A stretch of DNA of 64,000 bases from Antedon bifida (lineage: Eukaryota > Echinodermata > Crinoidea > Comatulida > Antedonidae): contig OY727097.1 in the NCBI GenBank assembly GCA_963402885.1, positions 27,955,401-28,019,400 on the forward strand, in the 5' to 3' direction. Of the stretch, positions 3,361-57,782 are shown in pieces; position 1 is the stretch's first letter; each line of letters starts with the position of its first letter. The position numbers and the translations under genes were made by a program. The notes under the pieces are model-generated. The model did no database searches and was not told where the DNA came from. It was given only the letters and a program-made list of their open reading frames with translations.

Positions 3361-3513
3361 TTAAGCTTTGTCTACACCATCAAACATATGATGTGCCCAT
3401 ATATGGACATGATGATGTCATATTACTACCGTATTTGGGAATATCACTACCATATTTGAACACATCACACTTTTTTTGTCAAACTTGTTTAATAGTGTAG
3501 ACCGAGCTTTAAG
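3361..3513. mobile_element. MITE, family A
   Basis: Non-autonomous palindromic element about 150 bp long. The left end reads like AAGCTNTGTCTAC and the right end is its reverse complement (GTAGACNGAGCTT), with ATATGG/CCATAT and TGACAAAAAA inner segments. At least eight other copies occur in the window. TTAA flanks both ends here, which could be a target duplication, but other copies do not show it consistently. Confidence 0.8.
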
Positions 3514-4189: not shown

Positions 4190-4287
4190 GTGTTACACTA
4201 TCAGACTAGTTTGACAAAAATAATGTGCTGTGCTCAAATATGCCCTTTTTTTGTCACATAAACACTGATAGTGTGGACAGAGTTTAA
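4190..4287. mobile_element. MITE, family A, internally deleted
   Basis: Ends CACTATCAGACTAGTTTGAC and CACTGATAGTGTGGACAGAG match the family A termini. The centre is shortened to about 100 bp in total, having lost most of the repeated ATATGG core. Confidence 0.7.
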
Positions 4288-4536
4288 CAATAACAAGAGG
4301 AAAGGCATGATTTCAATTTCTTTATTTGATCATCATCAGGAATGTCATCATTCTTAAAGGAGGTACTAAAATCATCCATTTTTATTCCAACACAATGTTT
4401 TTACCATAATGTCTAGCATTAAGATAATACTGTGCTGGGCATGACAAAGGTTTGTGGCAGCCTAACCCAAAGTAAGCCCAACACTGCTCTGGTCTCTACT
4501 ATCAAAATAATTCTTATAATGCTTTGTCTCTTGCAG

Positions 4537-4794
4537 TGCCATGGTATCAGTATCAAGGGAAACTTCTTGCATCAAAGCCTGACAAGAGAGATGACCGCTG
4601 GTGAGCTGAAGTTTGCATTGGCAGTTGAGACCGTTCTTAATCGTATACCACAACCTCAGTATAGACAGCTGATGGTTGAGGCTCTGATGGTGCTAACATT
4701 AGCAGTGGAGAATGACTGGTTTCAGAGTCTTGGTGGCACTATCCAAGTTGATAAACTTGTAGCCGATGCAAATGATCTCTTCCTAGAAGATCAG
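4537..4794 (+). CDS. Phosphorylase b kinase regulatory subunit alpha, second-last coding exon
   Basis: Eighty-six codons continuing the PHKA C-terminal region. The exon opens C-H-G-I-S-I-K-G and carries T-R-E-M-T-A-G-E-L-K-F, V-L-N-R-I-P-Q-P-Q-Y-R-Q-L and V-E-A-L-M-V-L-T, all diagnostic of the alpha subunit. It closes A-N-D-L-F-L-E-D-Q. The acceptor CTTGCAG ends at 4536 and the donor GTAATA starts at 4795; both junctions are phase 0. The R-Q-P-E-Y-like block and the absence of beta-subunit wording favour alpha over the related PHKB. In the family this region binds the gamma subunit and lies near calmodulin-binding segments; that role is family knowledge, not visible here. Methionine codons upstream of 4537 belong to the intron and are not starts. 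Confidence 0.95.
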
Positions 4795-6322
4795 GTAATA
4801 TATTTTTTTTTATACAACATAAAAAATTTAATTTTATAAAATACAATTTAAATTGTACACACATCAAATCTCGTCTCCATCTTTTTGGCCCAACCTCAAG
4901 CTCTCAAGCCAAAGATATGTTATCTAGCACATTTTCACCAATCGCGATCTTTATTTGATTAAAACAAAAAACAAAACTATGTTTTATCATGCCTAGAATC
5001 AATGATCCTAGGCCACAACAAGCAAAGCAACGTAAAGTTTGTTAATACAGTAAATGGAGAAGGAAGCTTAAATGTTGGCTGAAATTTCCTGGGCTAACTA
5101 TAGATTTTTTAAGCGATTGTGGAGGCAACCAAATTATTTGTGTGCAAAACTGTATACCTACATGATACAATATGATACTATATACTGTATATTGATAGTA
5201 TAATACTGTATCATACCCTATATAGTATAAATATATGATATTATATAGGCCTACAGTAAAATACTGTATAAGTCTATACTATAGCATATAGTAAAATACT
5301 ATAGGCTTATATATATATACAGTAAAATATATGATATGATTCTATACTGTATAGAGTATACTGTAATTTAAAAACAGATTAAATGTTATGTACAATTATT
5401 CATGTGTAGTTTATTTTAACATGAAAAAAGCAAAAGCAAAAAAAGCAAAATTTTCCAGTATTCATTGAGATTAAAAAATTTACAACATATAACGCTATTA
5501 AAAAATATTGTGAACTCACTCATCCAGCCACTTTGTGGTTTATTTAAAGTATGTTAACAGTAATTTGTGTGGCATTTGACGAAACACTGCAGTTGACCGC
5601 TAAATTTTGCGTAATGGATAATATCCTGTGGTACCGTCGGCCGAAATTTAATGTCGGAGCTTAAACCTTGCATTGTCATGCAATTCACATACACGAATAT
5701 GACTTGCGTTTTTTGCTGACTTTGCGTAACAAAAAACGTATTATCAAATTAAAAATAATATTATTAGGAAATGTCTAATTGGTTAAAATGATTAGTTATT
5801 GAATTTTTATAAAATTTGTGTAGAATATACCACAGAATTTCCTTACAGATTGTGTATAGGAAACTTATTCTCTTACATATGTATATGTGTTAACATGTAC
5901 ATGACGTAATCGCTAATCTGGTGACTAACGTATGATTTCTGTGCGTTTACTCAATGACGTGACTCATTTGGGGCTTTTAGGGTTGCAGCCTGGATTTCAA
6001 ACGACAGACAAACAGCCCTGTGTTTTTAAGCTATTGGGAATTTGCCTGTTATGTAAACTTGACCGTTAACAGTTTTAAACTGCCAATTAATTTTTCAAAA
6101 TGGTGTTATTCATATTAAAGATGATATGGAAAAATAATAATTTCTATTGAAACATATTAAAAGTATCTCTGACAAATATGATAAAGTTAAATTTAGAATG
6201 TTTCTCCTTGACTGACCTTAAAGTTAAATTTATTATTTTATTAATATCAAGAAAACAAATCTAGTGAAAACTAAAATTTAAACAGTTTAGATTATGAATG
6301 TGGCCATCACATTTTTTTCCAG
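4795..6322 (+). other. PHKA intron with AT-rich palindromic tract
   Basis: Intron from GTAATA to TTTTTTCCAG at 6322. Positions about 5155-5370 form a low-complexity run of interleaved TACTGTAT, TATAGTAT and TATATA words that can fold on itself. Nothing coding was seen. Confidence 0.85.
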
Positions 6323-6550
6323 AGAATTCACAATGGAGATTCAATGTTATGCTGTGCAGGACGCACAGAGGCGCAACGATACGATCCATTAAGGTGCAGC
6401 GGAGTTGCCGGCATTTGTAGCCACTTCTACGACAGCGCCCCCAGCGGCCAATATGGAACAATGACTTATCTAGCTAAAGCGGTAGCTAATACTTTGAATT
6501 TCCGACAGGAGTTTGGTATGAATGATACCGCTGAATGTAAACTAAGTTAA
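6323..6550 (+). CDS. Phosphorylase b kinase regulatory subunit alpha, terminal exon with CaaX box
   Basis: Seventy-five codons plus TAA at 6548-6550. The first part ([12 protein letters not shown]) is variable linker. It is followed by the strongly conserved block [13 protein letters not shown], then [11 protein letters not shown], the hallmark C-terminal motif of PHKA. The protein ends E-C-K-L-S, a CaaX motif. Mammalian PHKA ends in a farnesylated CaaX (CAMQ), so lipid attachment is probably conserved here, with serine at X favouring farnesyl transfer. The acceptor is TTTTTTCCAG at 6322, phase 0, matching the preceding donor. The 3' half of this exon is repeated in decayed form immediately downstream (6551-7072). 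Confidence 0.93.
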
Positions 6551-7072
6551 CGGTTTATTACGGATTCTAGCAGTTGTAGGCATCATTTATACGACAGCAG
6601 ACGAACACATGGCTAAATCGGTAACTAAAACTTTGAATTTCCGATGGTAGACACATGGCAAAATCGGTAGCTAATACTTTGAATTTCCGACAAGAATTTA
6701 GTGCAAATGATACCATTGAATGTAAACGAAGTTAGAAGTTCATTACGAATGCTAGCAGTTGTAGGAATTTCTATGACAGCGAGGGCAACCCGAAACAACG
6801 ACCTATCTAGCTAAATCGGTAATTAATGCTTTGAATTTTCAAACAGAAATTTGGTGCAAATGATACAGTTGAATATAAACCAAGTTTATTGATTAGTACG
6901 TATTCTATCTAGCAGTTGCAGACATTTCTATAACAGCGGGACCAACACGAAACAACAATCTAACAAAATCAGTAATAAATACTTAATATTTTCGACAGGA
7001 ATTTGGTACGAATGAAACCGTTGAATGAATTCTAAGTTAGCGGTTTATTAATCATTACGGATACTAGCATAA
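6551..7072 (+). pseudogene. Decayed tandem copies of the 3' half of the PHKA terminal exon
   Basis: Starting at the stop codon, the segment equivalent to about 6392-6550 recurs in order. Copy 2 is about 6551-6650, with an internal 46-bp duplication running to 6735; copy 3 is about 6736-6886, copy 4 about 6887-7040, and a stub of copy 5 ends near 7072. Anchors are GCAGTTGTAG, CTAAATCGGTAA and TTTGAATTTCCGACA-like words at 6493, 6632, 6678, 6830 and about 6983. Spacing between full copies is about 140-153 bp. Part of copy 2 still reads L-N-F-R-Q-E-F and ends E-C-K-R-S-stop, keeping a CaaX-like end. Copy 3 has a frameshift and Cys to Tyr; copy 4 has lost the Cys to a stop. An AATAAA at 6974-6979 lies in copy 4 and could serve as polyadenylation signal, so the array is probably transcribed as 3' UTR. 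Confidence 0.88.
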
Positions 7073-7829
7073 TTTAAGAGGCTAGATGTAAGGTGCATGG
7101 TAATTGAAGGCAAACGACAGCAGGATACAGCAAACAGGCCTGATTATTATTGTTTATAGTATTTTATAGAAGCTGCATTCAAACTAATTAATAACAGTCA
7201 CAAACTGGTGATTAGATGGGAGTGCGTAATTAGCCTGAGATAAATCCATTAAATCATGAGTGAAACGATGGGACAATCAGGAAGACAAAAGAAGATGGTT
7301 AAAGAAAGGTGACCTACAAAACCTTTATAGATATATTGTCCCATAGGCCATTTTAATGACGCATAACAGTTATTCACCAAAAATTGAATCAATATATATT
7401 CTCATCTTATCGTTTCAAATTAATTAAATTTCAGTATATCACTGGGCAGTTTAGAATTAATGTTCTTTGCCTGTTGTGTTTATATATATATATATAAATT
7501 TTTCAGTAATTTTCCTTTGGATTTATATATATATATATATGTATATATTTTACCTGATAAAACAATAATTTGAAAATAAGTAAAATATATTTTGTCTTTT
7601 ATACGTGAAATTATTTTTGTTGTTTTTTGGAAGCGGAAGTGAATAATGTAATGTAGTAACTGTAAAATGGCCTATTCATTTATTTCTATATAACACACTG
7701 TGTAATCTCTGCACATAAACTGTGAATAGCAAACATTTATTCTAAACAGTAAATATGTAAATTGTAATTTTCATAGCAGTGGTGAACATTTTACTGTCAT
7801 ATTACAGAAATGCTGCAAACTTTCCAGTC
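7073..7829. other. Intergenic, with (TA)n runs
   Basis: AT-rich. Two alternating TA tracts at about 7481-7497 and 7524-7548. No gene recognised. Confidence 0.6.
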
Positions 7830-7984
7830 TTAAGCTCTGTCTACACTATCAAACTTTATGTGACAACAAAAATGTGATGTGCACATATATGGGCATAATG
7901 ATGTCATATCGCTACCTTATTTAAGCATGTCACTACCATATTTAGGCACATCACAAACTAGTTTGATAGTGTAGACAGAGCTTA
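7830..7984. mobile_element. MITE, family A, well preserved
   Basis: Near-perfect terminal inverted repeats: left AAGCTCTGTCTACACTATCA and right the exact reverse complement, each flanked by TTAAG/CTTAA. The inner part carries the ATATGGGCATAATGATGTCA core and the repeated CACTACCATATTTA words. The symmetry is good enough for this to serve as a reference copy of the family. Confidence 0.9.
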
Positions 7985-8194
7985 AGATAGTGTAGTATTA
8001 GTTAAATTAGGCTTACCTTGAAATCTTTTTCCATGGAACGATTCCAAAATTTATTCATTACATAAAGCCGTTGGCCCAAGTTAATATGCAATATAATTTA
8101 CATAGATTAAACAGTTGGAAAGAAATCAAATCTTAATTGTTGGATATTAGATTCTGAAAAGTGGAAATTTATAAAATCTTCAAAGTTGAAAAAG

Positions 8195-17388: not shown

Positions 17389-19666
17389 ATTACTTCCGAT
17401 TTAACGTAATCCTAGACGACGCAGAACAAGTTAACCCGATTTATTTAACTCCGATAGAGAAAATAGCGTGTAAACATTGAAAAAATACACCGGAAAACAA
17501 AATTGATAATACATTAATTTATGTTTTATTGTCTGTAGGCTTTTTGTGCCAACATTTAAATATCCAGACAACATATAATCTACCATCTCTTGATGGTAAA
17601 TTCACTTCTCACAAACTATCTTTTCTTCCACTATATTATGTAATAAATTAACTTACGTACAAAAATATCTCATAATAAAAATATATCGCATAAATATTTA
17701 CTCATTATAAATACGCCTCTGCTGCGGACAAAGACTATTCTATACACATTTTACAATTGTTACAATATTCAAACTTTTCAAGGCGAATTGCTTTAAAACA
17801 CATGGTAACGGGAATATAGATAAAATATCATAATAATAATATATATAATTATTATTATAACATGGCACATATTGAACTTTTTATGCGCTTTTTATATTAA
17901 GATTATTTGTAGTTAAGCGCTCATTTTAAACTTAATATGGACTAACAATCGGGTTGACTACTGACGAAATGATGTAAAACTGACGCACGCGTACGAAAGC
18001 TCGTGTCTGTTCCACGTTTTCAAATTAATAGCGAATCAAATGTTGTGTCAATTCGTGACGAAAAGGCAGACGCGCCCTGTTAATAAGAAAGTGCAATTAT
18101 CAAATACAAACATTAGGCCTATTTTATGTCTAGGCCTACTTCAGTTATAGTTGCTGTAGCATTTTATCAAATAAAAACACTTGGAAATGTTTCCTTGTTG
18201 GGATTAATTACCCGTCTATAGAACAGTTAGCCTTGGTAACTTATTAAATCTACGAGTAAGATTTAAAACATTGCGTGCATTGCGATGTAATTGGCTACAG
18301 TAGTTATCAGTCACTCAAAGTAGCAAAACATGTTTTGGAACAAGTTCATTAAAGCTGTTGTTAATAACTTAGTACTTCGATGTCCCGTTCGATGTCATCA
18401 TAATAAAAGGAATTTCTCTAATATAGAATTGATAGTTTTAAAATTGGATATCTAAAGTAGGTTACTTACTGAGTCTTAACAAAATGGAACAAATACGCGC
18501 ATTATTGCTTTGCATTGTGCGAATACGTATTGATTATACCAGTGACATCATCACTAAAAGACACAACATTTGACCCGCGTACTGTGACGTATCACCATTT
18601 GTACGCAGCACCTTCCGTGTGTTTCACTAAGTATTTATGAATACAACTTTTATAGATTCCCTTAATATAGAATACTGTATTGCGTAAAGCTGTTTTGACC
18701 TTTGACATTTTAACAACGTTAATTATATATACTACTAGAGGCTTTATATAAACACAATCAATTTTGTACAATCTAAATACTTAATATTCTAAAGTAACAG
18801 ATACAGTATTTTGATCTTTATACCAAACTATTTCATTTCATGATATATAACAAAGATCCTCCAGAAAATAGTTATGAAATAATCATGAAAGAAGGAACTC
18901 ACGATATTTCAGAGCCATTTAGACAGGATAATCATTGGAATAGTCTAAATTGAGCAAAATGTGACCTGATTAGATCATCGGTGACATCACGGACAGACAC
19001 TAATTCAACGCGGCGCACAACAGCTGTGCCATTTTCATCCGCTTTTTGGCGCGCGCATTATATAGGCTGCTACTGTGTCCTCTATGGATTCACTGAAACT
19101 TCCATCACAATTTTACTGGGGGGTTTCTTTTTTGGTGTAAATTTAAAGTACAGTCAATATTAGAACGTTTTTGTGTCAAAAGCAGTTTGAATTTAAAATA
19201 AATATTTAGATGATGCGATGAGGAATATACAGATGAATTACTAATTTCTCTTAGAGAAACATTGTCCAAATGCATATTCAAGCAGATTACTTTAATTTTC
19301 GCAGTAATTAGTTGCCTATAAATAATTGAGTGTACAGACTGAAAAGCATTGGCACTAAAAGGTAGTCTAAATTAATGTGTACTGTAAAAGGTGTTTTATA
19401 ATAAATCCCACAAATGTTGTTTAGGCCACCAAGGATCTTGAAAATACGGTACCGTTCTGCAGATGTAGCGACCGTTCGTTAGTGACCAAGGGAGTGACAT
19501 GACCTTTATGCCTTCGTGAATCAAAATGAACCCGTTTAGCTTCGTTGTTTACCCGGGAAAGTTGGCGACACGCCCACCACCAACGTTAGCGATAATTGAC
19601 CAATGAAACCAACTTACACGGGTAAATAACTAAGACTGTCCAATGTCTATCACTGACATGTTTTCA
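17389..19666. other. Intergenic, no feature supported
   Basis: AT-rich; no gene recognised on either strand. Confidence 0.4.
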
Positions 19667-19810
19667 TAAGCTCTGTCTACACTATCAAACATTATGTGAC
19701 AAAAAATGTGGTGTGCCCATATATGGACATGATGATGTCATATCACTACCATATTTAAGCATATCACTACCATATTTGGGCACATCACACTAGTTTGATA
19801 GTGTAGACAG
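19667..19810. mobile_element. MITE, family A
   Basis: Starts TAAGCTCTGTCTACACTATC and ends GTTTGATAGTGTAGACAGA, with the ATATGGACATGATGATGTCA core. The right terminal AGCTT has been lost. Confidence 0.88.
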
Positions 19811-20604
19811 ATATATAGATAGATAAATACTGGCGAGAGTTGAACCCCATCATGTTATTGTGTATTTGTTGCCGAAGCAGCCAGCTGCAGTAATGAAATC
19901 CGCAATAAGCAACCCAAAATTGAATAAATATACTTTTTTTTTAAACAGTAACTGAAGGTATGGACCTTTCAAATCGCCTACCACATTACTTTGTATACCA
20001 CACTCTTTGGTAATTCGTAACACAACATAGGTGTTGTTACTTAAGTATCACGGCCATATTTTTTTCGTGGACACTTTTCGCAGTTTCCATGAACTAATTT
20101 ATATAATTTAATATTAATTGATAGCACACACAATTGCATTTATGATTCGTTGTGACTATTCTACTTACTGGCTGGCTCATTGTGTTCTTTTATATCATCG
20201 TCCTTTAGTGAATTCAACAATCTGAACACTTATAACGTCACTATAATGCTGACAAGAAAAGTATTATAGTGTTTTTCTGTTAACCACTTATATTATTCAA
20301 CATTGCTACTATGTAGCCTTTCTCCTCGAGCTGTCTGATGATAGAATATAGTCGCTCTAAGTTCTTGAGAAAGAAACGCTTCCAGCAAAAGGCACTGTTT
20401 GAATTGTACCAACTTCTTTACTTCATTTTTCTAAGCGAAAGACTCTGGCAGAACACTCTGCGACGACATTAACGCGTCGTCTAAGCGTCCGCAGACGCAA
20501 ACGACGCGTCACCACGAGTCTAAAAAATTCACTTATGGAACGTCACGTATGTTTTGTTCGTGAACAGGAATGTTTAGGGTGTTTTCTAAACGCTAGTCCT
20601 AATC
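19811..20604. other. FGF 3' flank or UTR, with hairpin
   Basis: Downstream of the minus-strand FGF stop codon. Contains a CpG-rich double-stem palindrome at 20472-20509 (listed separately). No other feature recognised and no clear polyadenylation signal singled out. Confidence 0.4.
20472..20509. repeat. Nested CpG-rich hairpin
   Basis: ACGCGTCGT (20472-20480) pairs perfectly with ACGACGCGT (20501-20509). Inside it GCGTC pairs with GACGC around CGCA, giving two stacked stems in 38 bases. It lies about 100 bp past the FGF stop codon, so it would be in the 3' UTR if the transcript extends that far. Confidence 0.7.
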
Positions 20605-20856
20605 TCACCGTGATTTCGATTTCTTCTTTTTAACGTCCATTGTTAAGAATCTCGTACTCCGTTTTTTCGGATTTTCGACTTTAGCATTTCTGGGGCTACC
20701 GTCCTTATTCAATGCTATCATCCAACCTTTGCGTTTAGTTATTCCCCGACAAAGATTACTTTTTGGCGAGGAAGAAGGGTAAGCACACGATGAAAATGAC
20801 GTCCAGCCGTCGTTTCTATAGTGCTGCTGGAAAAAACATTCTCCTGTGGGTATTAT
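20605..20856 (-). CDS. Fibroblast growth factor, terminal exon
   Basis: Eighty-three codons and a stop, read on the minus strand. The core G-E-C-F-F-Q-Q matches the FGF signature around the conserved Cys. The sequence then has W-M-I-A-L-N-K-D-G-S-P-R, the beta-strand and turn shared by FGFs (W/M-x-V/I-A-L-N-x-x-G-x-P), and K-R-S-T-R-F-L-T-M-D-V, equivalent to the usual HFLP-like end of the trefoil. Basic residues before F-L-T and the K-K-K-K-S-K-S-R tail suit heparan sulfate binding. Odd points are a longer loop with two additional Cys (C-A-Y-P and N-L-C-R) and Trp where the signature has Tyr. The exon follows TTCAATTGCAG and starts in phase 0. A second AG (CCCACAG) 13 bases inside gives an alternative phase-1 start. 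Wording is closest to the FGF7/10/22 group, but I would not assign a subfamily. Confidence 0.88.
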   Translation of the reverse strand: MIPTGECFFQQHYRNDGWTSFSSCAYPSSSPKSNLCRGITKRKGWMIALNKDGSPRNAKVENPKKRSTRFLTMDVKKKKSKSR

Positions 20857-23800
20857 CTGCAATTGAAAATAATGATGTTTTAGTTTGTAAAAGTAAAAAC
20901 ACAAAACCACCAAGCAATAATCAGTGGCGTAACGCAGAGGCCCGATGCCCCTGGCTTAGGAACCCCAAGTGGCCCTCCAACGATGGAGGCCTCGGGTGTT
21001 TTTTAGCCTTTTTCGAAACTCCGTATTGTATAATGAATATACCCGGAAATAAAATGAGAGATTAAAAAAAGAAAATTACGCGGCGTAAATTATTAATGCA
21101 TCATTTTTCCAATAATAAAGTTCAAATATTCCTTTCACGTCAGGAGAAAGTTTCAATTATATGGAACCACTATTATATCATTTTAAATCATTATTTTTGT
21201 TATAATTACAGTACTATAATTTCAATGAAAACTTACCGAGCCGTACAGATGTCCGGTCGAATTGATACACAGGTACAACGATGAAATATGTCCCTTGAGT
21301 TTAACAAGACTTCTCATCGATGGGCCTGGTGAAATTTCAATAATTGCTAAAAGACAAAAAAAACCCCAATTTATTTATTTGTATCGTAACGAAGTACGGT
21401 GTAATAAAAACCGTGTAGTTCTGAGAAACATCATACCGTTTCGACCAAACCGTCTTCTGATGATAAATAGACCTAGAATAAATTATCTATGTATATTCGC
21501 GTTTGTATCGGTACGGTATTTTCATTTGTAAAGATATGATCATGTCATTAATTTTAAAAAGTTTACTGACGAAAACACTGCGATATAATAAATTAAATGC
21601 AGTACAAATAGTTTTCGTTGACCAGTGGAACAAATTGAACATCGCGCTTTATCAGGTGTACTGTACATGATGCCAATACTAGCTGTACACAACGTAAATG
21701 CGTTTAATTTGGCGGTGCGTATTTTTCCTGATCTGCATTATTGACGGGTGGGATAGAGAGGCGGGCAAGAGATTCTTAATACCAACGGGGCATTTAGAAC
21801 CTCGCATACCGAAGTGTTAGGGACTGTCTCGCCTGTATCAAAAGCGTACCACTTCACCGCTGGGTTTCATGTCCCAACACACGTGTTGTTAGAAATTACT
21901 TGATATAAATTGACAAACGCTGCATGGAGTATAAAATGCGGATCCTGGTGCTACCCAGAAAGCTTTATAAATAGAAAAACACCAGAGACTTGAATTTGAT
22001 CGAAAAATACGGTACGCGAACACTCCATAGCCGCATATTACGAAACGTGACGAATGGGAATCCGTAGATATTCCGTAGGCCTTACTGGTTAATGTAATGT
22101 AGGTCTACCGTAAATTCGAATGCGAAATGCTTATTTCATAGCGGGCGAGCTCTAGTTTTTAAAATAATAATTATGCTACCCTAGATTTCGAGCCTACAGG
22201 TACAACCGTACTTTGAAATATTAACAAGAATACGGGCCTCCGTCATAATGTACTATGATGTGTCAGTGAATTCAAATTGTCAATTTTAATCTAAATGATA
22301 TCGTATGAAGATTGTTCGTAAACAATTTACAGAGAAACGAAAACGGAAACTTGAATCATTATAGGAAATCTAAAAGAATTAAAATACCTGGTATATATAC
22401 ATTGCATGCCTGATAGCGTGTCTGCTGGAGGAATACCAAACAAATTATTTATGTACAGTTTGCGATAGTGACATGCAGCGAAACGTAAAATGATGAGGTT
22501 TAGAATAACCAGTTAATTACCATAGTGTATTTGCCTAGAATATTGCATTTGATTAAATTGTGCTCTTGTTGACACGTTAAGCCGTTGGTCTGGGCATTGG
22601 TCTAGGTTGGAAATAACACATGTGCTAGACTAGAGAATACACCGTGTTTCCGTGTGGAAAGATTTTGTTATATAAGATATGATTTATATTGATATATCAC
22701 AAGTTGTATACTATACTATTACTAAGTCCTCTAGATGATACTTTAAGCCGTTGGGTTAAAATAAACCTAATGAAAATAGCAAAGGGATTTGATCGCCATT
22801 ACATTTATAAACATTTGTCAAATATCATTGACAATACCAGATATTTAGGTTATGACGTTAAGCCGTTGGTCAAGGTACAAAATAACCTAGAAAGTCGGAG
22901 GGATTCGATTCTCATTGCGTTCAGATCCAAAGAAGGGTTGAAAAGTAAAGTTTGAGCATTAGATAGAAAATGTTATTTCTGTATTGTTAATCCCAAAAGG
23001 TATTTTTTGACAGATTAGGTTAGATAGATTGAGCAGTCTGAAGATTGGCCTACGATTAAAGTTGAAATCGCACGCTACAGAGCTTTCGGGGAAGAACGGA
23101 ACGGTGTATTTTAGAACTTTATACCCATGCGCATATTAATATTTTGTATAGAATTGCCATCTCATTCATCTATGAGAAATGGGAAGAAACTTTACTGCAA
23201 AATGAATGTAAACTGCAGTCGTTGTGCGGAATTTGATGTCGAACTAGTTTAGGTGTTACGTGTCAATTGCCGTTTCAAACAGAATGTCTTTTGAAACAAA
23301 TTTATTAATCAAATTTAAATCGATGATTGAAATAATTCGATTCGTCCGGATGTGGAAATGTTCCACTATGATCAAAAGTAATTGTCCATATAAAAAGAGT
23401 TTATGTGGGGAAATGACCCAGCAAAGATCTGTTCCATGACGCATGTGTGTATCATAATATATGTATATAATTCCGTGACATTATTACACCGTGAAACTTA
23501 AGTACGGCTAATAGCTGTATGCTATTCAACTATGTTTATAGGGAAGTTCTTTTAACTGTCCCGACACTAAACTCCTGTGTCAAAATGGAATCGACTAAAA
23601 CGACCCGTGGAAGCAGTTTGTTTGTGTTGACAACGGACTACAAATACTTATATGTTTAGGTGGCGTTAAGAGAATATATATTATTATTAAACGTTAAAAT
23701 GATGATCAGTCCTTGTCGGATTTGGATAGCCCTGTATGACGTCGAACTTGTCTAAAAACCAATTTACAGCAGAGATGGATAGCTTGCTTCGTTAGGTTTC

Positions 23801-24898: not shown

Positions 24899-27703
24899 CT
24901 TATTAAGTAACTTTAGTTGAGGAGTTGTGATTCACAGATTTCTTTCTTCATTGACATATCTGAAGTTATTGAAGATAGTCATAATCTATTTCCTTTCTAT
25001 TTTAATGACTTTGAGAAATGCTTTTTGATAAGTACGGTACTTTATATGTCAATTTTGTTACTAAATATTGCGTCGATCTGTAGTATTAATAGTATGTTTT
25101 TCGTGTGTCCCCCAAAAACATGAAACATTAATAATATAGACTTTAAATATGCCATTTTGCAATTCTAATAAAGTTTTTTTACTTCCGTGGAAAAAAACCA
25201 ACAAAAAATAGCATAGGCCTAATGATTTCACTAATAAAAAGACAAAATAAAAGGTTAAATTTAAACAAAACCGATTGTCTGACAAAAGAAGAAAGTTTTT
25301 CATTTTTTAAATCTAATTTTGAGGTCAAACTGAATAAGTATTTTATGACATTAAAATGGCATATTAAAAACAATTCCAGGCGGACAATATATCTTCTGTA
25401 AAGTACATTGTCATTTAAATCTTTCTCTTATTATTACGTCACTGATTAAAAAAAACATTATCCAGTACATTTATCCCAAGTTCAGATGTTCTCCTTGGGG
25501 TACAGTTTAGGTTCCAGTATTATGTGCACTTTAAAAACAGACCTGCTGTGCTTGCTATTGTTATTATTTTTGCCTGAGAAAGAAATACCACAATATCGTT
25601 CACTCCTCTGTCCAATTAAGCCTTTAATTCTAACACAACGAGTTCCTATCTATTGCCAACTGCGTGTCAAGATAACCGTTTTATGAGGTAGAAGTGAAGT
25701 TACGCAAGGGTAGCGTATTGTCTTTATATTCGTCTATCCAGGTACTTGTGCCATTGTTTTTCCATTGTTGGTTTCCTGATTATTGGAGTTAGTATGCAAG
25801 GTTTTCAACGAAACTACAATAAAATGCAATCATTATATATTCAGCCACACCATGAAGTTAACGCGCGCGTGCAAAAAAATACACGCGCACATGGTAGTGA
25901 CCGGTTTGTACGTGCATATAAAGCCGCTTTATGATATTTCAACGTATTTCAAGCAAAAAACATTTGTGTCGAGCTCAGCTATCATATTTACCGGTGCATG
26001 ATTGCATGTTACACACATTTATGACAGGTGCAGGGTGCATTCCTCTGAAACTTGTTTTGGCAACATCTAACATATTAAATACCGTTTAAAAAAAAGTAAT
26101 AATGCTCGATTTTGTAGTTTTGTAAGTTAAAACTTAGCCTACGCTTATTATTATTGCGCGCAAAGTTGAAGCCTTTTAAATGTGAATGTGGTTTTTGAAG
26201 ACCTGGACCTAATCGCTTGCCCTATTATGCCATTGTTATCCTGATCGTTCCAATTAACTAAACGATAATGAAGGCTGGATAATCATTGGAAAGATTTAGA
26301 CGTAAAAGTCGGTAGCCACTCTAGTCGGTAAAGATCATAAACGGTGTAATTAATTATTTAAGGGCAATTATAAGATGATCGGGTTAGGACACTTAATAGC
26401 CATACCTTAAAACGTTAAGCAGACAACACATATGTACCTATCAAAACACTTTTCATTAAAATAAATGTATTATTATGGTAGCATTAGCAAAACAAAGGTA
26501 GCCTGCAGTACACTGACACAAATGCTTGAAACATGTTAACGTCCATTTTACTTCTTAAAATGGTTTTATTTTGCACATAAGCCGGATCATACACGCTGCT
26601 GTTTTCTGCAGCGTTTAGCTTATTCCCAAGGGATCGACCGGCTGACTATCATGGAAATATAGTATATTTCTTTGACAAGGTCGCACCTTTGCTCGAGTTT
26701 ATCGTACCTTGTTGTATAAACTGTTGTTGTACCTATGCTATAATACCGAAAGAATAGTTGGCCGTTAAGCCAGAGGAAATCTATGATTTTACACTTATAT
26801 GTGTAAAAAGTGCATCCAGATAGACCTGAGTCATTATATCAATTTAATTCATCTTGTCGAGATTTGCCGATTAGACAATTTCAGAAACAAGTTCCTTTCC
26901 ACAAATGAATAACATTTATATGTGTGAAGAAACCGGTCTTTCTGATGATGTACCGGTAACAGACAGAGAACTGAATGTCCATGCACAATATTCAGAATAT
27001 AAATGCATGACTTTGAAGAAACCCGTAATATTATTAAGTCTAGAAAATAGTAGTACTAATTTTGTAATATTAAAATGCCGAACGAATAATTCAATTGTCG
27101 TCATTATCAATATTATTTATCCTATACTGTATAATATACTACAGTATTTTAATTAACTAAACTGTGGTGCGAAAAGTGGAGGTCTCGCGTGTTTTTTGAG
27201 TTCGTATGAAAAGTTTTCGATCGAAGAAACCTTTAATTTAAGTTCTAACCACTTAACACTTTTGAAACGGCATAATAGAGGCCAATTAGAACAGCAATGA
27301 ACAGCAAAGATGTGTGAATGTGACTAAGGAACTTACAGATCTCTTGTATTTTGTTATTACACGTTGCTTACGGTTTACTATATACTATATTATTCAAGAT
27401 AGAGTTCTGCCAATTTTCTTAAACTCTGGGTTTGATTGAACACTTTAAAAGAAGACGAAAGCTCCAATGTGGTTATACAAACAACACAAATCAGGTATAG
27501 GTATAAAATGTGTATATCAATGGTAACCTATATATTTTGTGCCTTATTTATGATTTACAGTCACATGTATATAAACATAGACCACTTACCGAAGGTCGAT
27601 AGAGTAACCAAAATATTTTACCGGTCGCAAATCAACTTACCGGCAAGGTTGGGTCAAACAGTTACCCGTAAAAAACAAATTGCAAACTGTAAAATATACT
27701 TAC
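24899..27703 (-). other. FGF intron 1
   Basis: Bounded by the GTAAGT donor of exon 1 (27703 downward) and the proposed acceptor at 24899. No other coding segment of FGF type was recognised in it. Includes CpG-rich alternating purine-pyrimidine sequence (CGCGCG..CACGCGCAC) near 25862-25890. Confidence 0.5.
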
Positions 27704-28229
27704 TATTAACATCGTTCCCGGCATCTGTTCCATAAACTTTACCATCCTTATCAATAGCAAGCAGAAGCTGCCATTTTGAGTAAATTTGTTTAAGTTTGTG
27801 ATGAGCATTTCTTACTCCTCTCTTGTTGCCTTTTTGGGCTTCAGCTGCCCTGGCCGAACTTGGATGCCTGATTGCCATTTTGGGTTGGGTCCCCAATAAA
27901 TCAATAGGCTTACTTGTTGGAGAAACAACACGTTTGTTTTCGTTCGTATTATTATCCTCTGTAACAGCGTTTACTTTTGTTGTTGTTTCTTTATTTGTTT
28001 CAATTTCTGTGTTTTGTGCTTCAGAGCTTTGTAATTTCAATGACTCTGTCGTAGTCGTCACCGTGCTGGTGGATGTCGTTGTTAATTCACTTTCTATCGT
28101 CCTTCTGTTTAAAGCTTCTGTTGTTACAATATCTGTCGTATCAAAAGGAACACAATCTGCATGTTGCAGAAAATTTACAAGCAAAGTAATGTAGAGAAAA
28201 AACCGCGATAATGCAATAACAAATTCCAT
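27704..28229 (-). CDS. Fibroblast growth factor, first coding exon with signal peptide
   Basis: Begins at ATG 28229-28227 and runs 175 codons plus one base to a consensus GTAAGT donor. Residues 1-26 form a signal peptide (M-E-F-V-I-A-L-S-R-F-F-L-Y-I-T-L-L-V-N), so the product is secreted. About 75 residues rich in Thr, Ser and Glu follow, likely O-glycosylated and unlike compact vertebrate FGFs. Then comes a basic stretch (K-R-G-V-R, a possible processing site) and L-K-Q-I-Y-S-K-W-Q-L-L-L-A-I-D-K-D-G-K-V-Y-G-T. That is the first strand pair of the FGF trefoil (L-Y-x-x-x-x-x-L-x-I-x-x-D-G-x-V-x-G-T). The exon stops just after it, where FGF genes normally have an intron. FGFs signal through receptor tyrosine kinases with heparan sulfate as co-factor. 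The frame is open upstream to a GTG at 28262, but the first ATG gives the signal peptide at the right place. Confidence 0.85.
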
Positions 28230-30608
28230 TTTAAAGTATATCTTCCAGTAGTCCAACTGCACGTTGATTTCTTAATATGTGTCTTCTTTTGCTTGTTGCA
28301 AATTCAATATTTTACAACTATTTCTAGCAAAATCCATGCAATGGACAGACTTTGATAAAACAACAGCTATGTTTCAATCTTTGTACTGTCGAGTTTTCTT
28401 CCTTCATAAGGTTTTCCTTAAAAGTGATAATTCCCTGTTACTGTATTAGTGAATGTAGGCTATTCGGACGAAGAGAGCTTATTCACTCAGTAGGCCTACG
28501 GTTGTCCCTGACAATTGCTGAATTCAAGAAGATTAGCTTCTTTTTGTATGCTCACTATTCTCAACCAATCACATTCGTAAGTAGGCGGGGCTTAAGCTGT
28601 GCGGCCCTGAACGTGTATTACGTTAAAGCTAACTTCTTTACAGTACGTACTTCAGTTGAACCACAGAGTTCACAGTTTCTTTACATGTGTTTTTACATGT
28701 GTTTAAAGTAATCAGAATTCTGTAAAATCAACAAGAGAAGTAATTCAAGATTATATTTCAAATTTTAGTTAAATTATTTTATACAAAAATCTAACTGAAT
28801 TTAACTAACTAACTCCACATTCTGACACACAAATCTATGGATCTCAACAGTACTTTATATTGGATTGAGAACCCGGCTTGCGAATACATTTCTCGGACTC
28901 GAATATACTTCTACGTATAATGCATCATAGTGCTGTACGATGACGTCATAAAGCGCTTACGTAACCGGTTTCAATGGTCACAATGTGTACCCGTATTCTG
29001 ATTTTAAGGGTGCAGACCCTGATCCCCAGGGTACATTAATTGAGAGCTTATTACCATCTTTACACAGCTCTGATTCATTCAAATTTACTCTGTCTCTCTA
29101 GATGCCATATCTATATGGACGTAGGCCATCATGTTCTGCCACAATTTCTCGCTTTCGTTAATTATTAAACAACAAAATTAATTTCGGATTATTTCAATAG
29201 AGAAAGATATAGCCAACACCCTTTGAATAATAAACTCATGTTAACTTACTATTTAATATAGGCCTACAGTACATTCTCTGACTGAAGAATATGCTTAATT
29301 TTTGCATATGGTGCGCCAATGAATTGTTAGCGTTGTTCAGTACGTCGTTGGAAGGGTGGTCTGATATTATGATAGTAAAGGTGCATTTTATTATATCGGA
29401 TGAGCATTTCGATCGATAAAGGTGATTCCAATTCTAAAAATAAATCTGACCAATAATTACGCAATATATTGTGAAATGCATATTGTGCTGATGCTTGAAC
29501 AGACTTGTCATTGTTCTATCGATTGGTTGAGTGCAAATATTGGATCATTTGTCTAAAGATGCGTTTAGTTAATAATATTTGTCTAACGTAGCGTATATTT
29601 GTCTTTACAATAAAGAATGGAGAGTAGAGCACAAAAGATGACCAGTGCTTTAGTCATAAAACAAAAGCGCAATAATCAATTGTTTTGTATTCCGGTATTT
29701 TAAAGTAACGCCACGCCAGGTACGGTGTGCGGTTTTTTTTTTCGTACGATAGTTCCACATAATAATCGGATAATATCAACTCCAAAGCTCTGTATACACT
29801 ATCAAATTTATGTGACAAAAAAATGTGATGTGCCCATATATGAACATGTAGTGTCATATCACTACCATATTTGGGCATATCACTACCATATTTGTATACA
29901 CTTTTTTTGTCAAACTAGTGTAGACAGAGCTTTAGTACAATAATAAATATGTATACTAATGCATTAGTGCAGTTATTTTTACAAAAACTCTTCCATTGAG
30001 TGCATCCTACTTAAACGACCCGGATGTTGAGAAAGTTTCGTACGGAACGATGACCATTATTCTAGTTCATTAAATTGAAATTGTTTTTCCAACAAGATTT
30101 AGTATCCGAATATAATAGACAAACACCTGGTTAAATCATATGTTTTTCTCTAAACATCTGCCGTATACAAACACCTGAGTGAACTGTGTGATTTAACAAA
30201 AAAAGCGAAAGATTATGCAACCATCGGTGATCCGGTTGTTAATGTTGTCTTAATTATATTTTTTTTAAAGGAGAAAAAACACACACGGATCTCTTGATTA
30301 TTAGTTAAGATACGTGCGCGTTCATAAATTGATGCCTGAATGCATGGAGTAAAGAATTTACTCCATGCTGAAGGCCTACAGCTTGTGCGCAATTCAATGG
30401 CAGTTTCTTTTTTTCCTTATGAAAGTTGTACCAAATAATCTAATAAAGATGATTGAACCTAAAAAACATGTTTTAATCTGTCCCACAATATTATTGTAGA
30501 TTAATATTGATTTTGTGTAAAAAAAAAGGGCAAAATTTTAAAAATGTGCGCGAAACGATTTCATAAAGCACATGTGCAATGACCTTTTCTATTATTATCA
30601 ACATCAAA
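28230..30608. other. Intergenic region between two divergent genes
   Basis: Lies between the start of the minus-strand FGF and the plus-strand exon at 30609, so it should contain both promoters. I could not single out a TATA box or initiator with confidence. One family A MITE sits at 29784-29934. Confidence 0.5.
29784..29934. mobile_element. MITE, family A
   Basis: AAAGCTCTGTATACACTATC at the left and CTAGTGTAGACAGAGCTTT at the right, with the ATATGAACATG core. Part of the right arm (GTTTGATA) is deleted. Confidence 0.85.
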
Positions 30609-30821: not shown

Positions 30822-33320
30822 GTAGGCGACTAAAACCATTTAATCTCCGCTAGGATTTGACCCCAATCTGATGCTTGATTAGGCCTAGCCTAAAATCTTT
30901 TAAAACAACTCTGAAATGCTAAAATTGCTTACATACTAATAATTATTAAGTGCATATGTCTATTTATATAACAGTTAACTAGCCTATCCAATTATTATTT
31001 CGGTTTAATTCCTCTTTTGTGTACTTTTTTAGTTTTAAATTGTATTTATAAGGCCTAGCTAGGCTAGTTCTAGTAATTTAGACTTAGTTTATTAAGACAA
31101 AAATTAGAGGATGGAAATCATGTATTGCTCTATAGATACTGTGTTTGATTGATAATGACTTGGCCAACATACTCAACCCCCTAGCTAGTCTAGGTTTTTT
31201 GTTTTGTTTTGTGTAAGAGTATTTAAACAACATGCATGATTTATGTGTAATGATCAACCTTTAAATCTAAATAATGTTGATTCAATATTATTATGTTTGT
31301 CAAATAAAATTGAAATGAATTTCTTTGTTGTGCTTATTTTGTGCTTGTTTTATTGTAACATACAGTAAACTTTAATATCCTAAATGTTCATTTTTGGTGA
31401 TTTTTTGTTTTTTTATTGATATCTTCATTTATCACAAGAAACGTTATATTATGATCATTATTCAACATCTAAATGACATTATATCAAACAGGGGTTTAAT
31501 TGATTTAAACGACAAACAAAGCTCTTTCCATTTTTTAGAAGCTTCTAATTATATCACAGGAATATAATTTTGACGGATGTAAACATCCCCAATTTTAATG
31601 TCTTCTACCTAGCTTGTCTGAAGCATAGCTTATTATTGGCATATACAGTATTAGCATTGGCTTTCCACCCAACCTAATATCAACACAGCACCCATGTTTT
31701 TTCCTTACCTATTAATTTATTTTTTAAATTTCACCAACATCTACAGTACTGTAGACTTTTCTAGATACCTGTATTCACCATATTTAGAATATAACTATGA
31801 CCTTGTTCAACTTGGTGGTTTTTTTTTTTTTTCTTACTAAATGATTCACAAGAAATTAATTATTTATGCATAATTTAGGTCAAATTCGTCAGCTGATTTT
31901 AGTACAGTATTAATTTATAAAGTCTAAAGGGACGTGACCCCAGGTTTAAAACCAGTACAATTATTAAAAACGAAAGTAGTACCACAACCTGTTCCAACTT
32001 CAGGTAGCTAAATGTAAACTTTCATATTGTCTGTGAATTTAGATAACTGTAACATTGGCTACCTCTGTTCAGGGGATACCCTATAGGGGACACATTGTTG
32101 GGTGTTGATGGTGTCCCCTGAATGGAGGTTATACTGTATACAGTATTACTACTGGCAGGATATATAGTATATAATCAATTAATATAAATAAAGAAAAGTG
32201 TAATATAAATCAGATTCTTTGAGCAGTATTACAGAGTCAATATTTACACTTTAAGGGTTACTGTATGCCGTCCAGTGTATATTGAAAAACAATATACAGA
32301 ATAGAGTTTTAAGTATTATAAATCGGATTCATAAATTGAGATGAAGAGTCAATATTTAGAATTAATTTAATATTTATTTCAGTTTTAAAGATACTCTTTG
32401 TTGGCTCGCTAAGTGGTTCTACTGTACTGTAAAAAGAGAAATCGGATTTATAAATGAAGATATTGAATAATGTATTTAGTTTGAATAGGGCTTTCACTGT
32501 ATACTCCTATCCAGTATACAATAATAAAGAATAAAATCAGATTCTACATACAGTATTATAGAGATATTAATATTTTTCTAATTCATATTTGTTCATGTCC
32601 TTGTTCCACTATGCATTCTTTTTTTATTTTTTTAACTTCTCACTAAAATGCATATAGAAAAGACAAAACACATATTAGTGAAAGGTAGGACCAACAGGTG
32701 GTAAATACCTCTAATACGGTCCAGTCCCATTTAGACAATGAAAACGTATAAATAAAATTATAATAAAATACTGTATAATGGCCTATATAGCATATTATAG
32801 AAATTAGTGATCTTAAGCTGGTCGACATTTACAGCATTCTAACAACATTCTAAAAAGTTTTGATACAAGCTCTATTAAATCTATGATGTCTCAGATTTTA
32901 AATCTACTATTAGCTTCAGGTATTAATATGATTACAAAGTAGTTTTTCCTGTCAGCTTTTCTATGATAAGAAATGTACTGTACATACCTATTGGACACAT
33001 CCTATTAATCACAGGATGTATACAACGTTATTAGGTATTACCAGAATGAGCTTTCTAACTTGGAGAAAAATATTTAGCTGTTGATAATTTAATCAAATTA
33101 TCTACAAATAATCTTTACTCAGACGTACAAAGTATAAAAGTTGATTATACTGTAGAAAGTGTACAGTAATTATGATATAAAATCATCTATAGTACAGTAT
33201 CATAATTTAGAACATACCTACTTTAAACTATTTCTTAAGTGTATTTTTTTTTTCAATGTAATAGCACTAGTAATATCTTCATTTTGTTAATATTTGGGAG
33301 ATTGGATGAAAATTTCGGAT
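30822..33320 (+). other. Intron-like sequence with many TACTGTA/TACAGTA words
   Basis: Follows the donor at 30822. No coding sequence recognised. An inverted pair, CCTCTGTTCAGGGGATAC and GTGTCCCCTGAATGGAGG, spans about 32062-32127. It belongs to a repeat also seen at 34.27 and 59.24 kb. The heptamers TACTGTA and TACAGTA are strongly enriched from here to about 34.3 kb. Confidence 0.5.
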
Positions 33321-33644
33321 GCTCCTAGCGAAATCGGGAGGCTCCCAGAGAAATCAGGAGGCTCCCAGAGAAATCAGGAGGCTCTCAGAGAAATCGGGAG
33401 GCTCCCAGAGAAATCAGGAGGCTCCCACCCAGAAAAATCGGGAGGCTCCCACCCAGAAAAATCGGGAGGCTCCCACCCAGAAAAATCGGGAGGCTCCCAC
33501 CCAGAAAAATCAGGAGGCTCCCACCCAGAAAAATCGGGAGGCTCCCACCCAGAAAAATCGGGAGGCTCCCACAGAAATCGGTAGGGTCCCACAGAAATCG
33601 GGAGGCTCCCATAAAAATCGGGAGGCTCACAGAGAAATCGGGAG
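33321..33644 (+). repeat. Minisatellite, 15 units of 20 or 24 bp
   Basis: Units read GCTCCCAGAGAAATCGGGAG. Five 20-bp units (33321-33420) are followed by six 24-bp units carrying an additional CACC (33421-33564), then four 20-bp units (33565-33644). The central 24-mers are nearly identical, the flanking 20-mers more varied. Because 24 is divisible by three and the unit lacks stops, several frames on both strands stay open and translate to repetitive peptides. I regard those as by-products, not genes. Confidence 0.95.
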
Positions 33645-35361
33645 GGCTAAAACGTCTGATGTTTCTCTTTTATATACAGTCATTTTATACGGTAGCTTGT
33701 GTTTCAATGTTACTACTCTGACCTAGCTCCTTCTTTAACTAGTTTATTAGTATGTCAAGTAACTTCCTGTAGAGACTTCAATTCTGTTGATTCCTCGTTT
33801 GGATCAAATTATCATTAATTTGCAACACCCCGAGTGAGACACGCAATTCATGCAAAAGGCCTACTGTACACGTCATTATCGCTTCTCCAGAATCTCTCTT
33901 GATAATCTTAACTACTTCATTCTTTAACCAAATTTTAAAGTGCGTTCTTTGTTTGAGATGACTGGCTAAGCGCTCTTCCACTGTGAACGGTAGTACAGTA
34001 GTTAAAAAAACTAGTTTTAAAAACTAAAATATGCTGTACAATGTATTAAAAAAAAATAATAGCCTCCAAATTATGATTTCAAATGTATCAACATTTCCTA
34101 ATAGGCTACTAAACAACATTTGAGTAGTAATTGGTTAGTAAAATTATAGTAGAGGAGACACTACTGTATATAATAAGGACCCAAAAAAGTATTCCTTATA
34201 TGGATGTACTGTATACTGTAAGGCTTGGCTGTAGTGTTAAAAAAAAAATCCCTAATAATTTCACAGAAAAATGTCCCCTTAATAGAGGTGTCCTCTGAAC
34301 CGGGTGTTCCAAACAAAAGGTTTGAATGTATTAAAATAAGAAAATAAGAACTTTTTTTCTATTCAATATCAAGTTTTATATATTGATGTATTAATTTAAT
34401 TTATAATACTCTGATTTCTTAACAGTAATCACTCTTGTAATATTAAACAAATACAAAATACTGCTTGCATAAATATTTAGTTTTTAGTAATTACTTTAGA
34501 TTAAAATCTGCTTAGTATATTTTTCAAAAACTAATTGTGAATTTTCATTGACAACAGGAAATATATGGAAATCAAGGGTGCATCAAAATTCAGTATAAGT
34601 TTCACATAAGCCAAACATAATTATTTTTTGATCTGAATTTAAAACATAATATATACTTCAACAGTGGTTAAAATAAATTATAGTTTGTAAAGCAAGTCAA
34701 GGGAACGTCAATAGATAAGAAAAAAGAATATCCGTTACGATTTGAGTGAAGTGGCGACAGTTGGGGCAAAATATTTTAAACAGATAAATAAAACAAGTCT
34801 TTCGACTTTATTGAAGATTAAAATTATTTAAATCTTTATCACTATCAGTGCTATTACAATTACATATCTGCCATAACTTGACTTTAAAATAATACTTTTT
34901 AAAATTCAGTGGCAGATCTAGGAGTCAGAAATAGAAAGGCATGGGCTTAAAAATTGTGAAATTGATGTAGGCCTACTAAATATGTCTACAGCTGTACAGT
35001 AGTCAAAAGTAGGCATTCCTTCACTTGCACATCCAAGGGAATGTTTTAGAATAGTCAAATGTTTCAACATGTTCATATCATATAATAACATCTGTTATCT
35101 GATCGTTGTAATGATTGAAATCCGTTTTAGTTTGAGTAAATTCCAGATCCAGGATTCTGAACTCCAACATGCTTTACAACATACTACACATGTGTTCATT
35201 GCACTCGATGTGTTTTTAAATTTCAAAAACTTGGGAGACATTTTATGATTGGTTGGTACCTGTACACTATTTCTATAGTCTCTGTTTTTTAGCTACAGTG
35301 TTGTTTATTATTCTTTCTTTATGCTATCGCTTTTAGTACTGCATAGTGTATTTCACAAGGA
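33645..35361. other. Non-coding, repeat fragment at about 34262-34310
   Basis: Contains TGTCCCCTTAATAGAGGTGT (about 34270), a fragment of the same family found at 59.24 kb. No gene recognised. Confidence 0.45.
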
Positions 35362-35502
35362 TAAAGCTCTGTCTACACTATCAAACTATTACTAGTATAT
35401 GTGACAACAAAAATGTGATGTCATATCACTACCATATTTGGGCATATCACTACTATATTTGGGAACATCACACTTTTTTTTTTCAACAGTGTAGACTGCC
35501 TG
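35362..35502. mobile_element. MITE, family A, degraded right end
   Basis: TAAAGCTCTGTCTACACTAT at the left; the right end reads CAACAGTGTAGACTGCCTG. Inner CACTACCATATTTGGGCATA words are retained. Confidence 0.8.
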
Positions 35503-43945: not shown

Positions 43946-45140
43946 CTAAGTCCAAAGTTGTTTAATTACATTTTTTCTATTTCAAACCTTAACAATTCTC
44001 TCATTTATGTTCTTCAAATGCATATCTTCAACATAAAAAATAAAATTTGTTTGCGCTGCTTCTTTAGCCAGTTAGATTCAAGAGGATGGAAACAGTTACC
44101 ATGCGGAAGCTTATAGTTTACCACAGCTGGAAAATGGGTATTTGGAAACTTGGACTGGGCATGCACACGTTTGAGGAAGAGACTTGAAATAGGAATTTGT
44201 AAACTCCAACTAGGCATGGGCACTAAGAGTGTGTTAACCTACTGTATGTTCAAATGAAATAGAATATCAATTAAAAAAAGCATCATTTAATGAAGAAAGA
44301 ACAAAAAATAAAACTGTTACGTCAAAAGTCGAGCAGCATTTTTTTCGGTAAGAAATATTTCTTGTTTAATAACCGAAGTAGGACGGTGCAGTGTTGTACT
44401 TCTTATCACCACAGGATTATGTTCTAATACCCAGAAGCACACATTTTTCTTATTAAATCAAATGACATGTCTTGACATTTCACAACATTGTGGATCTCCC
44501 TTCCACTAACTTTAATCATCCGTCCGTCCATTGGTAAATGTTTCCAGTTGCAATCTGGTTTAAATAAAGTTAGACATTAATATGAAATCCATATAATAAA
44601 AAAAAAATTCACTAAATTTATTGTGCGGCACTTTTGGAAAATCTAAAATATATATTTTTCAAATTTTTTTTCCAATTTTATTAATCATACTTACTAGACC
44701 AGCCAATACTAGCTTATGAGTGAACAAATATATTAAATTAAAAAACAGATAAAAACATCAAATGATATAACCACTATTTACAAACATAAAACACATGAGT
44801 ATTGACCAAACAAGCAAAGGACTATTCTTTAAATTACAATTCAATATTGTATAATGTTTTCTTTCTAACAACAGTTATATAACATAACATTTCATTTCAT
44901 ATATAAAGTATATATTTTCTTGTTTTGTCAACAAAATGAACATTGCAGAAAAAGGAGGGAAAAGAAGTTAAACACTCAACTATTAGTAAAATATAATTAT
45001 TTGACATACAGTACCATCAATTTATATTATTTACAGTTAGAATTTGAAATCAAAATTAATTAATTAATTAATTTTATATACTGTTTTGGCCACAACAATA
45101 TACAAAGATGAAAATGTATATATACTGTAGGGTCATAATA
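43946..45140. other. Non-coding, no feature supported
   Basis: AT-rich; a short (AATT)n tract is at about 45055-45073. Confidence 0.4.
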
Positions 45141-45306
45141 TTAAGCTCTGCATACTATCAAACTAGTTTGACAAAAAAAGTGTGATGTGATGCTCAAATA
45201 TGGTAGTAATATGCCCAAATATGGTAGGTAGTAATGTTACATCATCATGTCCATATATGTGCATATCACATTTTTTGTCGCATAAAGTTTGATGTAGACA
45301 TAGCTT
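45141..45306. mobile_element. MITE, family A, opposite orientation
   Basis: TTAAGCTCTGCATACTATCA at the left, ATGTAGACATAGCTT at the right. The inner words read TGGTAGTAATATGCCCAAAT, i.e. the reverse of most other copies. Confidence 0.85.
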
Positions 45307-51531: not shown

Positions 51532-51867
51532 AATATTTTGATATAATTATTAATAATTATGTGATAAAAAGATGCCATGTGCCCATATATGGACATGATG
51601 ATGTCATATCACTACTATATTGGGCATATCACTACCATATTTGGGCACATCACACTTTTTTTTGTCAAATTAGTTTGATATTGTAGACAGAGCTTTATAA
51701 ATATTTTGATATAATTATTAATAATTATGTGATAAAAAGTTGTGTTGTGCCCATATATGGACATGATGATGTCATATCACTACTATATTAGGAAATATCA
51801 CTACCATATTTGGGCACATCACACTTTTTTTGTCAAACTAGTTTGATAGTGTAGACAGAGCTTTATT
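51532..51867 (+). mobile_element. Two family A MITEs in a 168-bp tandem duplication
   Basis: AATATTTTGATATAATTATT starts at 51532 and 51700. Each is followed by AATTATGTGATAAAAAG, the ATATGGACATGATGATGTCA core and the right end GTAGACAGAGCTTTAT. Both copies lack the left terminus (CTCTGTCTACACTATC) and share the same flanking sequence. A truncated insertion was therefore duplicated together with its flank. Confidence 0.9.
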
Positions 51868-55800: not shown

Positions 55801-57782
55801 TACATAACACAAATGACATACATGCTGCTTAGAACCACTGCAAACCATGTGCAAATTACCAAGTGCCTTTGATTGTTGTCGTGACGTCAATAACAAATAA
55901 GATGATTGGAAGTAATTTGCCTTGTTGGTGGTGACGACGGACTTCGTCGGCTCCAACTGAGACGATATAGTTTGTTGAGCTTAGTACGAAATGTTTATTG
56001 GTCTGGTCTTGGTGAAAGTTTTTCTTGTACTTTACTAAGATGAAGTTTCACAACTTGCAAATTTGTTATTTTTCGTGCATTAATATTACAATTTTTGCAA
56101 AATTTAAGTTATTGCAATAATTGATAAATTTATTTACAATAATTGATCAAGATTTTTACCATAATTAATTTTTTAAGATAATTAATCATAAAATTGTTAT
56201 TAAATTAAGTTATTATGACAATTGATAGATTTATCATGAATTGATAATGATTTAATGATAATTGATGAAATTATCACAATATTTTATAATGTTAATATCA
56301 TTTTTTATAAAGTTATCACAATAATTCATAGTGTACGAAGGAACTTACTGTATATTTTGAATACAGAAATATTGCAACAAAAAGTTACAAAAATTAATGT
56401 CTAAAAATAAAACAACATAAATGTATTTGTCATTTCGTTCTATTTTATCATTTTCAAGAATCAGAACATTACAAATTATGTAAATTTTGTCATAAGGCTA
56501 GCTTTACATTTGATATCTGCTGTTAGAAGGGTCAAGGAGCCTCCATTCCCATGTCTCAGTGCTTTTTATAAAGGGTGGGAAACTTTCGTTTCTCGTACCA
56601 TCCATAATCCCATGTGTCCTGTCTTTATCATTGGGATGACTGTGTCTTTTTAGAAGTCAGTATTTACATGTTTTTTACTCAAAGAATTCTTTCAAAGTAT
56701 GGGGAAGGTTTTGCCAGCGTAGCGTAGCACAATGCTACACATTCATAATATGGTGTAATGTAATGTAAAAAATGCCGTACAAAATTATGCTTCTTCTTTA
56801 TGCAGGCTGTTGATCGATTATCAATTATTTCTGTTCAAACATATCAAGCAGTTCTGAGAATTCGGGTTCGAATCTTTTCGTATTTTTATTCTGACAGATT
56901 AAGTTCCTTACATTCACCTTCTAAAAATAATTTTCGGTATACTGTATCACTGAGTGGTTTAAATTAATACATGTATAAACATTTTTTTTTTCCGAGATCT
57001 TGTTTATGATGTATAAAAGTTTATTTTGTGCCAGTTTTGCTCTGTTTATTTGTGATAAAGTTTGAAAAAAAATATTAGTATTTAACCTAATGTACTACCC
57101 ATCTGTTTGGTAACACAATGAGAATAATACATGCAGTCTGTTGCATATTTCTGGGGGAAAAAATGTAATGTTGTTCTGAAAGAAATCACATACCATTGAT
57201 TCAGAACAAAAGACAATTATACCTTTCATTTGAAATCTTTAACACATCTGGTTATACAGTTTTTTAAAGCGTATGTTGGTGAGAATCCAATTTTAATACT
57301 TTAAACAAACTTGAAGTAATGCGCCACAGATGATATATGGTTTTGGGTTGAGTAGTGTCTTTATAGGAAAAGTATTGTGCAATCTTAGTAAATCGTAGAT
57401 AAACATGCAGCAACATTTATAACAAATGTATAGCACGAAACATTGATGTAATGTTGTTGGGTGATAGGTCTTCACATTATGTTGTCTGGGGCAGTTGTAC
57501 TAAATTAGCCATAGAGCGATGTATCATGGCAAACCTTTCTTTATTAATCAGAGACAATTGGTAGATTGCAATGCATGATTGGTAATTTCAGGTCCCAACT
57601 GAAAAAATTTAATATCGGATGACTTTATAAATCATGGCTAACACATAGAGGGTGCTATGATATTTACAAAATACTTCCAAATATAGAGCGCTAATTTAAA
57701 TAATCTCAGTCATCGGTACCTATAGTAAACAATTGGTATTCTAGAAACTTCCAAATTGTGGCATATGTGCATTGTGGAGCAT
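52816..57782. other. Long non-coding stretch with small GC-richer islands
   Basis: No gene recognised. Segments at 53220-53480 and 56520-56640 are less AT-rich and may be conserved non-coding elements, but the open frames across them (for example 53220-53522 minus) have no family resemblance. Confidence 0.35.

Follow-up and report, generated by a model that had tools for sequence, protein, structure and literature searches.

The PHKA gene end and other features of the window

The window, that is, the whole 64-kb stretch of Antedon bifida DNA analysed here, contains the end of a PHKA gene with tandem copies of part of its last exon behind it (Table 1). Three stretches of the + strand match, in order, the muscle alpha subunit 8jfk_M of the PDB, which we take to be the human protein: positions 1717–1815 (residues 1049–1081), the penultimate coding exon in the same frame, and the PHKA-like last exon, which lies in another frame and aligns to about residues 1179–1210 (phmmer, E 2.8e-07). 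The penultimate exon ends with GAT CAG before the GT and the last exon starts with AGA ATT CAC, so that the two join in phase 0; the start of the terminal exon was placed by its acceptor and phase. The two upstream exons together scored 110.1 bits against the alpha chain versus 57.6 against the beta chain, and the last exon 33.5 versus 15.5 bits, placing the gene nearer to alpha than to beta in sequence similarity. Pfam KPBB_C matched the frame of the upstream exons (E 1.3e-21), and no Pfam match was found in the remaining two frames, including that of the last exon. The first-pass annotation had assigned the terminal exon to PHKA, and both its alpha-chain match and the ordered upstream exons bear this out. 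Its frame ends in ECKLS with the stop codon at 6548–6550, and the C-K-L-S end places a cysteine at −4, but a lysine at the first 'a' position of a putative CaaX motif. The C-terminal CaaX of the PHKA alpha subunit is reported to be farnesylated in the human and rabbit muscle enzyme (PMC10978961).

Table 1. Positions of the PHKA exons, the units of the array behind them and two further tandem arrays of the window
Feature	Position	Strand	Basis
Penultimate PHKA coding exon (matched part)	4528–4794	+	phmmer, residues 1079–1166 of 8jfk_M; donor GT at 4795, phase 0
Terminal PHKA exon, begins RIHNGDSM	6323–6550	+	translation; phmmer to 8jfk_M; acceptor AG 6321–6322 after T-rich tract
c0, source stretch: exon part, stop and ~20 nt of 3' flank	6411–6569	+	repeat search, local and multiple alignment
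c1, copy with internal 46-bp duplication; 26-codon ATG frame ending ECKRS in right half	6570–6754	+	repeats, alignments, translation
46-bp sub-duplication in c1 (6605–6650 / 6651–6696)	6605–6696	+	direct-repeat search
c2, copy with broken frame: 7-nt gap and 1-nt insertion relative to exon; stop codon position altered	6755–6911	+	translation, alignments
c3, copy with 7-nt gap in the alignment columns of that of c2, in-frame stops; AATAAA at 6974	6912–7073	+	translation, alignments
168-bp tandem array, 2.0 copies, 94% matches	51532–51866		tandem-repeat search
192-bp tandem array, 2.9 copies, 93% matches	57781–58352		tandem-repeat search

Several other features were recorded in the window. A short element at 7828–7987, which has identical 28-nt terminal inverted repeats and contains AAGCTCTGTCTACACTATCAAACT, looks like a MITE. 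BLAST within the window gave relatives of it at 3361–3509, 19664–19822, 29785–29893, 35364–35472, 45138–45306, 51557–51695 and 51725–51863, the last two lying one in each unit of the 168-bp array, and a 42-nt match at 4246–4287. The 192-bp array carries an open frame of 113 aa on the − strand (57998–58339), for which no Pfam family reaches its cut-off. Also on the − strand, an open frame at 20605–20955 has a Pfam hit to FGF (PF00167; E 1.6e-08, 35.1 bits, cut-off 24) and probably represents the terminal exon of a fibroblast growth factor gene. A 205-aa open frame at 27654–28271 of the same strand has a hydrophobic start and QIYSKWQLLLAIDKDGKVYGT, which resembles the beginning of an FGF domain; this frame could represent the first exon of that gene. 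No Pfam FGF match was obtained for it, and we took as chance its one match, below threshold, to an unrelated family (E 0.019, 15.4 bits, cut-off 25). A minisatellite occupies 33317–33645; its units are of 20/24 bp (GGAGGCTCCCAGAGAAATCG), and long open frames run through it.

A tandem array behind the stop codon

The 3' part of the last exon (roughly its last 46 codons), the stop codon and about 20 nt of flank recur head to tail behind 6550. This was the common result of searches for direct and tandem repeats, of shuffle-controlled local alignment and of a BLAST comparison of the region with the window; the tandem array behind the PHKA stop codon is real and well defined. The copies have the same orientation, regular spacing and significant similarity to the exon: the best local scores were 106 for c1, 116 for c2 and 94 for c3, against maxima of 26, 24 and 27 respectively in 300 dinucleotide shuffles each. 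A self-comparison of the exon with the downstream sequence had been proposed as one check on the array, and each unit passed it by this wide distance above the shuffles.

The first-pass annotation had described growth of the exon end past its own stop codon, as four tandem copies starting from 6392 and spaced at about 140–153 bp, together with a 46-bp sub-duplication and one copy keeping LNFRQEF and ending in ECKRS. The growth itself, on which the searches, alignments and BLAST agree, stands, as do the tandem copies behind the stop codon, but their number does not: there are three units, and the apparent fourth is the 46-bp duplication, which lies within c1. The start-to-start distances of a 40-nt core were 139, 46, 152 and 153 bp, of which the 46 bp is the sub-duplication and the other three are near the spacing given. 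Translation identified the copy ending in ECKRS as c1. The start had been set too far upstream, as local alignment puts it at about 6411.

The flanking stretches did not match the exon above chance. The intron stretch 6100–6322 aligned to the exon at chance level (88 of 300 shuffles reached its score), and so did 7074–7240 (score 20, equalled or exceeded by 38 of 300 shuffles) and 7241–7440 (score 18, equalled or exceeded by 119 of 300). We considered an older fourth copy behind 7073 on the basis of a 24-nt match between 6390–6413 and 7089–7112, and rejected it, as the alignment of 7074–7240 was at chance level and located elsewhere. When 6323–7440 was compared with the 64-kb window by BLAST in a search for dispersed copies, matches outside the region itself had E values of 0.059 or worse.

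Differences common to the copies and coding constraint

A site count gave six positions at which c1, c2 and c3 agree with one another against the exon (6414, 6424, 6479, 6511, 6519 and 6531). At 6479 the base of the copies is derived, because the alanine (after lysine) that the exon encodes there also occurs in the PDB alpha subunit, and this derived base is present in both halves of the 46-bp duplication. The residue that the exon encodes at 6414, the isoleucine of GIC, is likewise conserved; this position is the fourth base of the unit, at its edge, and the difference could derive from the junction instead of from a mutation. Position 6424 falls where c1 aligns poorly. In c2 and c3, a 7-nt gap in the part encoding SAPSGQY occupied identical columns in four multiple alignments, three of them made with different gap settings, and breaks the frame. 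Pairwise alignment with the exon splits the gap differently (5+1+1 in c2; 6+1 in c3, plus 3+1 further on), so that the reading of one and the same deletion in c2 and c3 rests on the multiple alignment. At this site c1 is shorter still and cannot be scored.

Over 25 codons of its right half, c1 differs from the exon by eight nonsynonymous and three synonymous changes. Simulation without constraint (5000 runs) gave an expected 8.3 nonsynonymous changes, and the frame would remain stop-free in 0.66 of the runs. Thus no constraint was seen by simulation on c1, the best-kept copy; c2 and c3 were examined through codon positions only. An excess of differences at codon position 3 reached p<0.05 in one of the six unit pairs, c0 and c3 (16/43 at position 3, 15/83 at positions 1 and 2; p 0.028, uncorrected for six tests), and c2 and c3 lean the same way (p 0.069, uncorrected). 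The bias in these two pairs, which we regard as weak, could point to a period spent as coding sequence. Overall, the copies resemble non-coding sequence that has decayed, and the duplication was probably neutral.

Origin of the array

We consider it likely that a single duplication produced one copy and that this copy, having ceased to code, was later amplified into the array. A local tandem duplication of ~160 bp, from about 6411 inside the last exon to about 6570, ~20 nt past the stop codon, would have left the original stop intact, with a second copy following it. This copy would have been free of coding constraint because translation ends before it, and would have gained a frame-breaking deletion and other changes. 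The decayed copy may then have been amplified to three units by unequal exchange or slippage, with the 46-bp duplication in c1 arising later and the original exon still encoding the C-terminus. We infer that the copies probably lie in the PHKA 3' UTR today, as non-coding sequence. Judged from the sequences, the bases common to the copies and the gap of c2 and c3 favour, although they do not prove, one founder amplified after loss of the frame; homogenisation between copies would also yield shared bases.

If instead the exon end had been duplicated repeatedly, with each new copy laid down adjacent to it, distance behind the exon would reflect age, and the copies would form the relative age series that the first-pass annotation had seen in them. 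In the better-aligned part, with 99 compared sites, identity to the exon does drop from c1 (82%) through c2 (79%) to c3 (75%), and c3 was farthest from the exon in 0.70 of 2000 bootstraps. However, the full order c1, c2, c3 was retained in just 0.48 of them, so the age series does not hold up, and over the full alignment the identities were 72, 78 and 74% respectively. The bases that the copies have in common unlike the exon, and the gap common to c2 and c3, also speak against serial duplication, which we regard as unlikely. Tree analysis did not single out a branching order: four-taxon parsimony sites split 3:2:2, and the three splits of the unrooted tree were found in 1038, 635 and 327 of 2000 bootstraps with no clear winner, the commonest (c0 with c3, c1 with c2) failing to pair c2 with c3, which counts against the reading favoured here. 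That the whole array is an assembly artefact is scarcely credible; although tandem arrays are prone to misassembly, the units differ mutually at 22–34% of compared sites, far above sequencing or assembly error.

Two further readings would give the copies a role. As alternative terminal exons they would exchange one C-terminal tail of the alpha subunit for another. We translated the AG sites of the array in phase 0, as set by the donor following 4794. Some gave partially PHKA-like peptides: for example, the AG at 6780 gives one with TTTYLAKSVINALNFQ, ending in WCK, and those at 6736 and 6999 give peptides with NFYDS and EFGTNETVE. However, none of the 35 AG sites in 6551–7100 yields the whole conserved tail with its cysteine at −4, and the best of those in the array has 11 pyrimidines, compared with 13 of 17 at the true acceptor. 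With none of the AG sites fitting and the frames of c2 and c3 broken, the copies lack what each tandem alternative exon would need, an acceptor that can be used and an open frame compatible with the rest of the gene, and we consider this use of them highly improbable. The other reading starts from the probable place of the copies in the 3' UTR. No AATAAA or ATTAAA occurs between the stop codon and 6974, a gap loosely consistent with a 3' UTR spanning most of the array; the AATAAA at 6974 is a match that is frequent by chance in DNA of 33% G+C. It is very unlikely that the PHKA mRNA has kept the array as a 3' UTR element with a putative regulatory role taken on after coding loss, be it as a binding array or as a downstream ORF, for which the 26-codon frame of c1 is the candidate.

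The PHKA array resembles known systems in part. As in partial (intragenic) tandem duplication and tandem exon duplication, exon-derived copies lie head to tail beside their source exon. In contrast with these, the PHKA unit consists of only the 3' part of a terminal exon, the stop codon and some flank, has no acceptor, and its copies lie behind the stop codon. The period of ~150 bp and the few diverged units are also those of a minisatellite-like long-period repeat, from which the PHKA array differs in having a source unit that is recognisable as a functional coding segment. Divergence among its units is greater (TRF, 76% matches) than in the 168-bp and 192-bp arrays. The presence of these two arrays in the same 64 kb indicates that duplication at this scale is background and not special to PHKA. 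None of the titles listed in a weak search of open-licence literature describes such a case, which does not show that none is in print.

Thus the PHKA array is a local duplication of an ordinary, known kind in an unusual place, behind the stop codon of its own gene. Where a tandem duplication takes in the stop codon, it can start out harmless, as the gene keeps its old end while the copies drift behind it. Without any function of the array being implied, this may be one route by which 3' UTR sequence grows from coding sequence.
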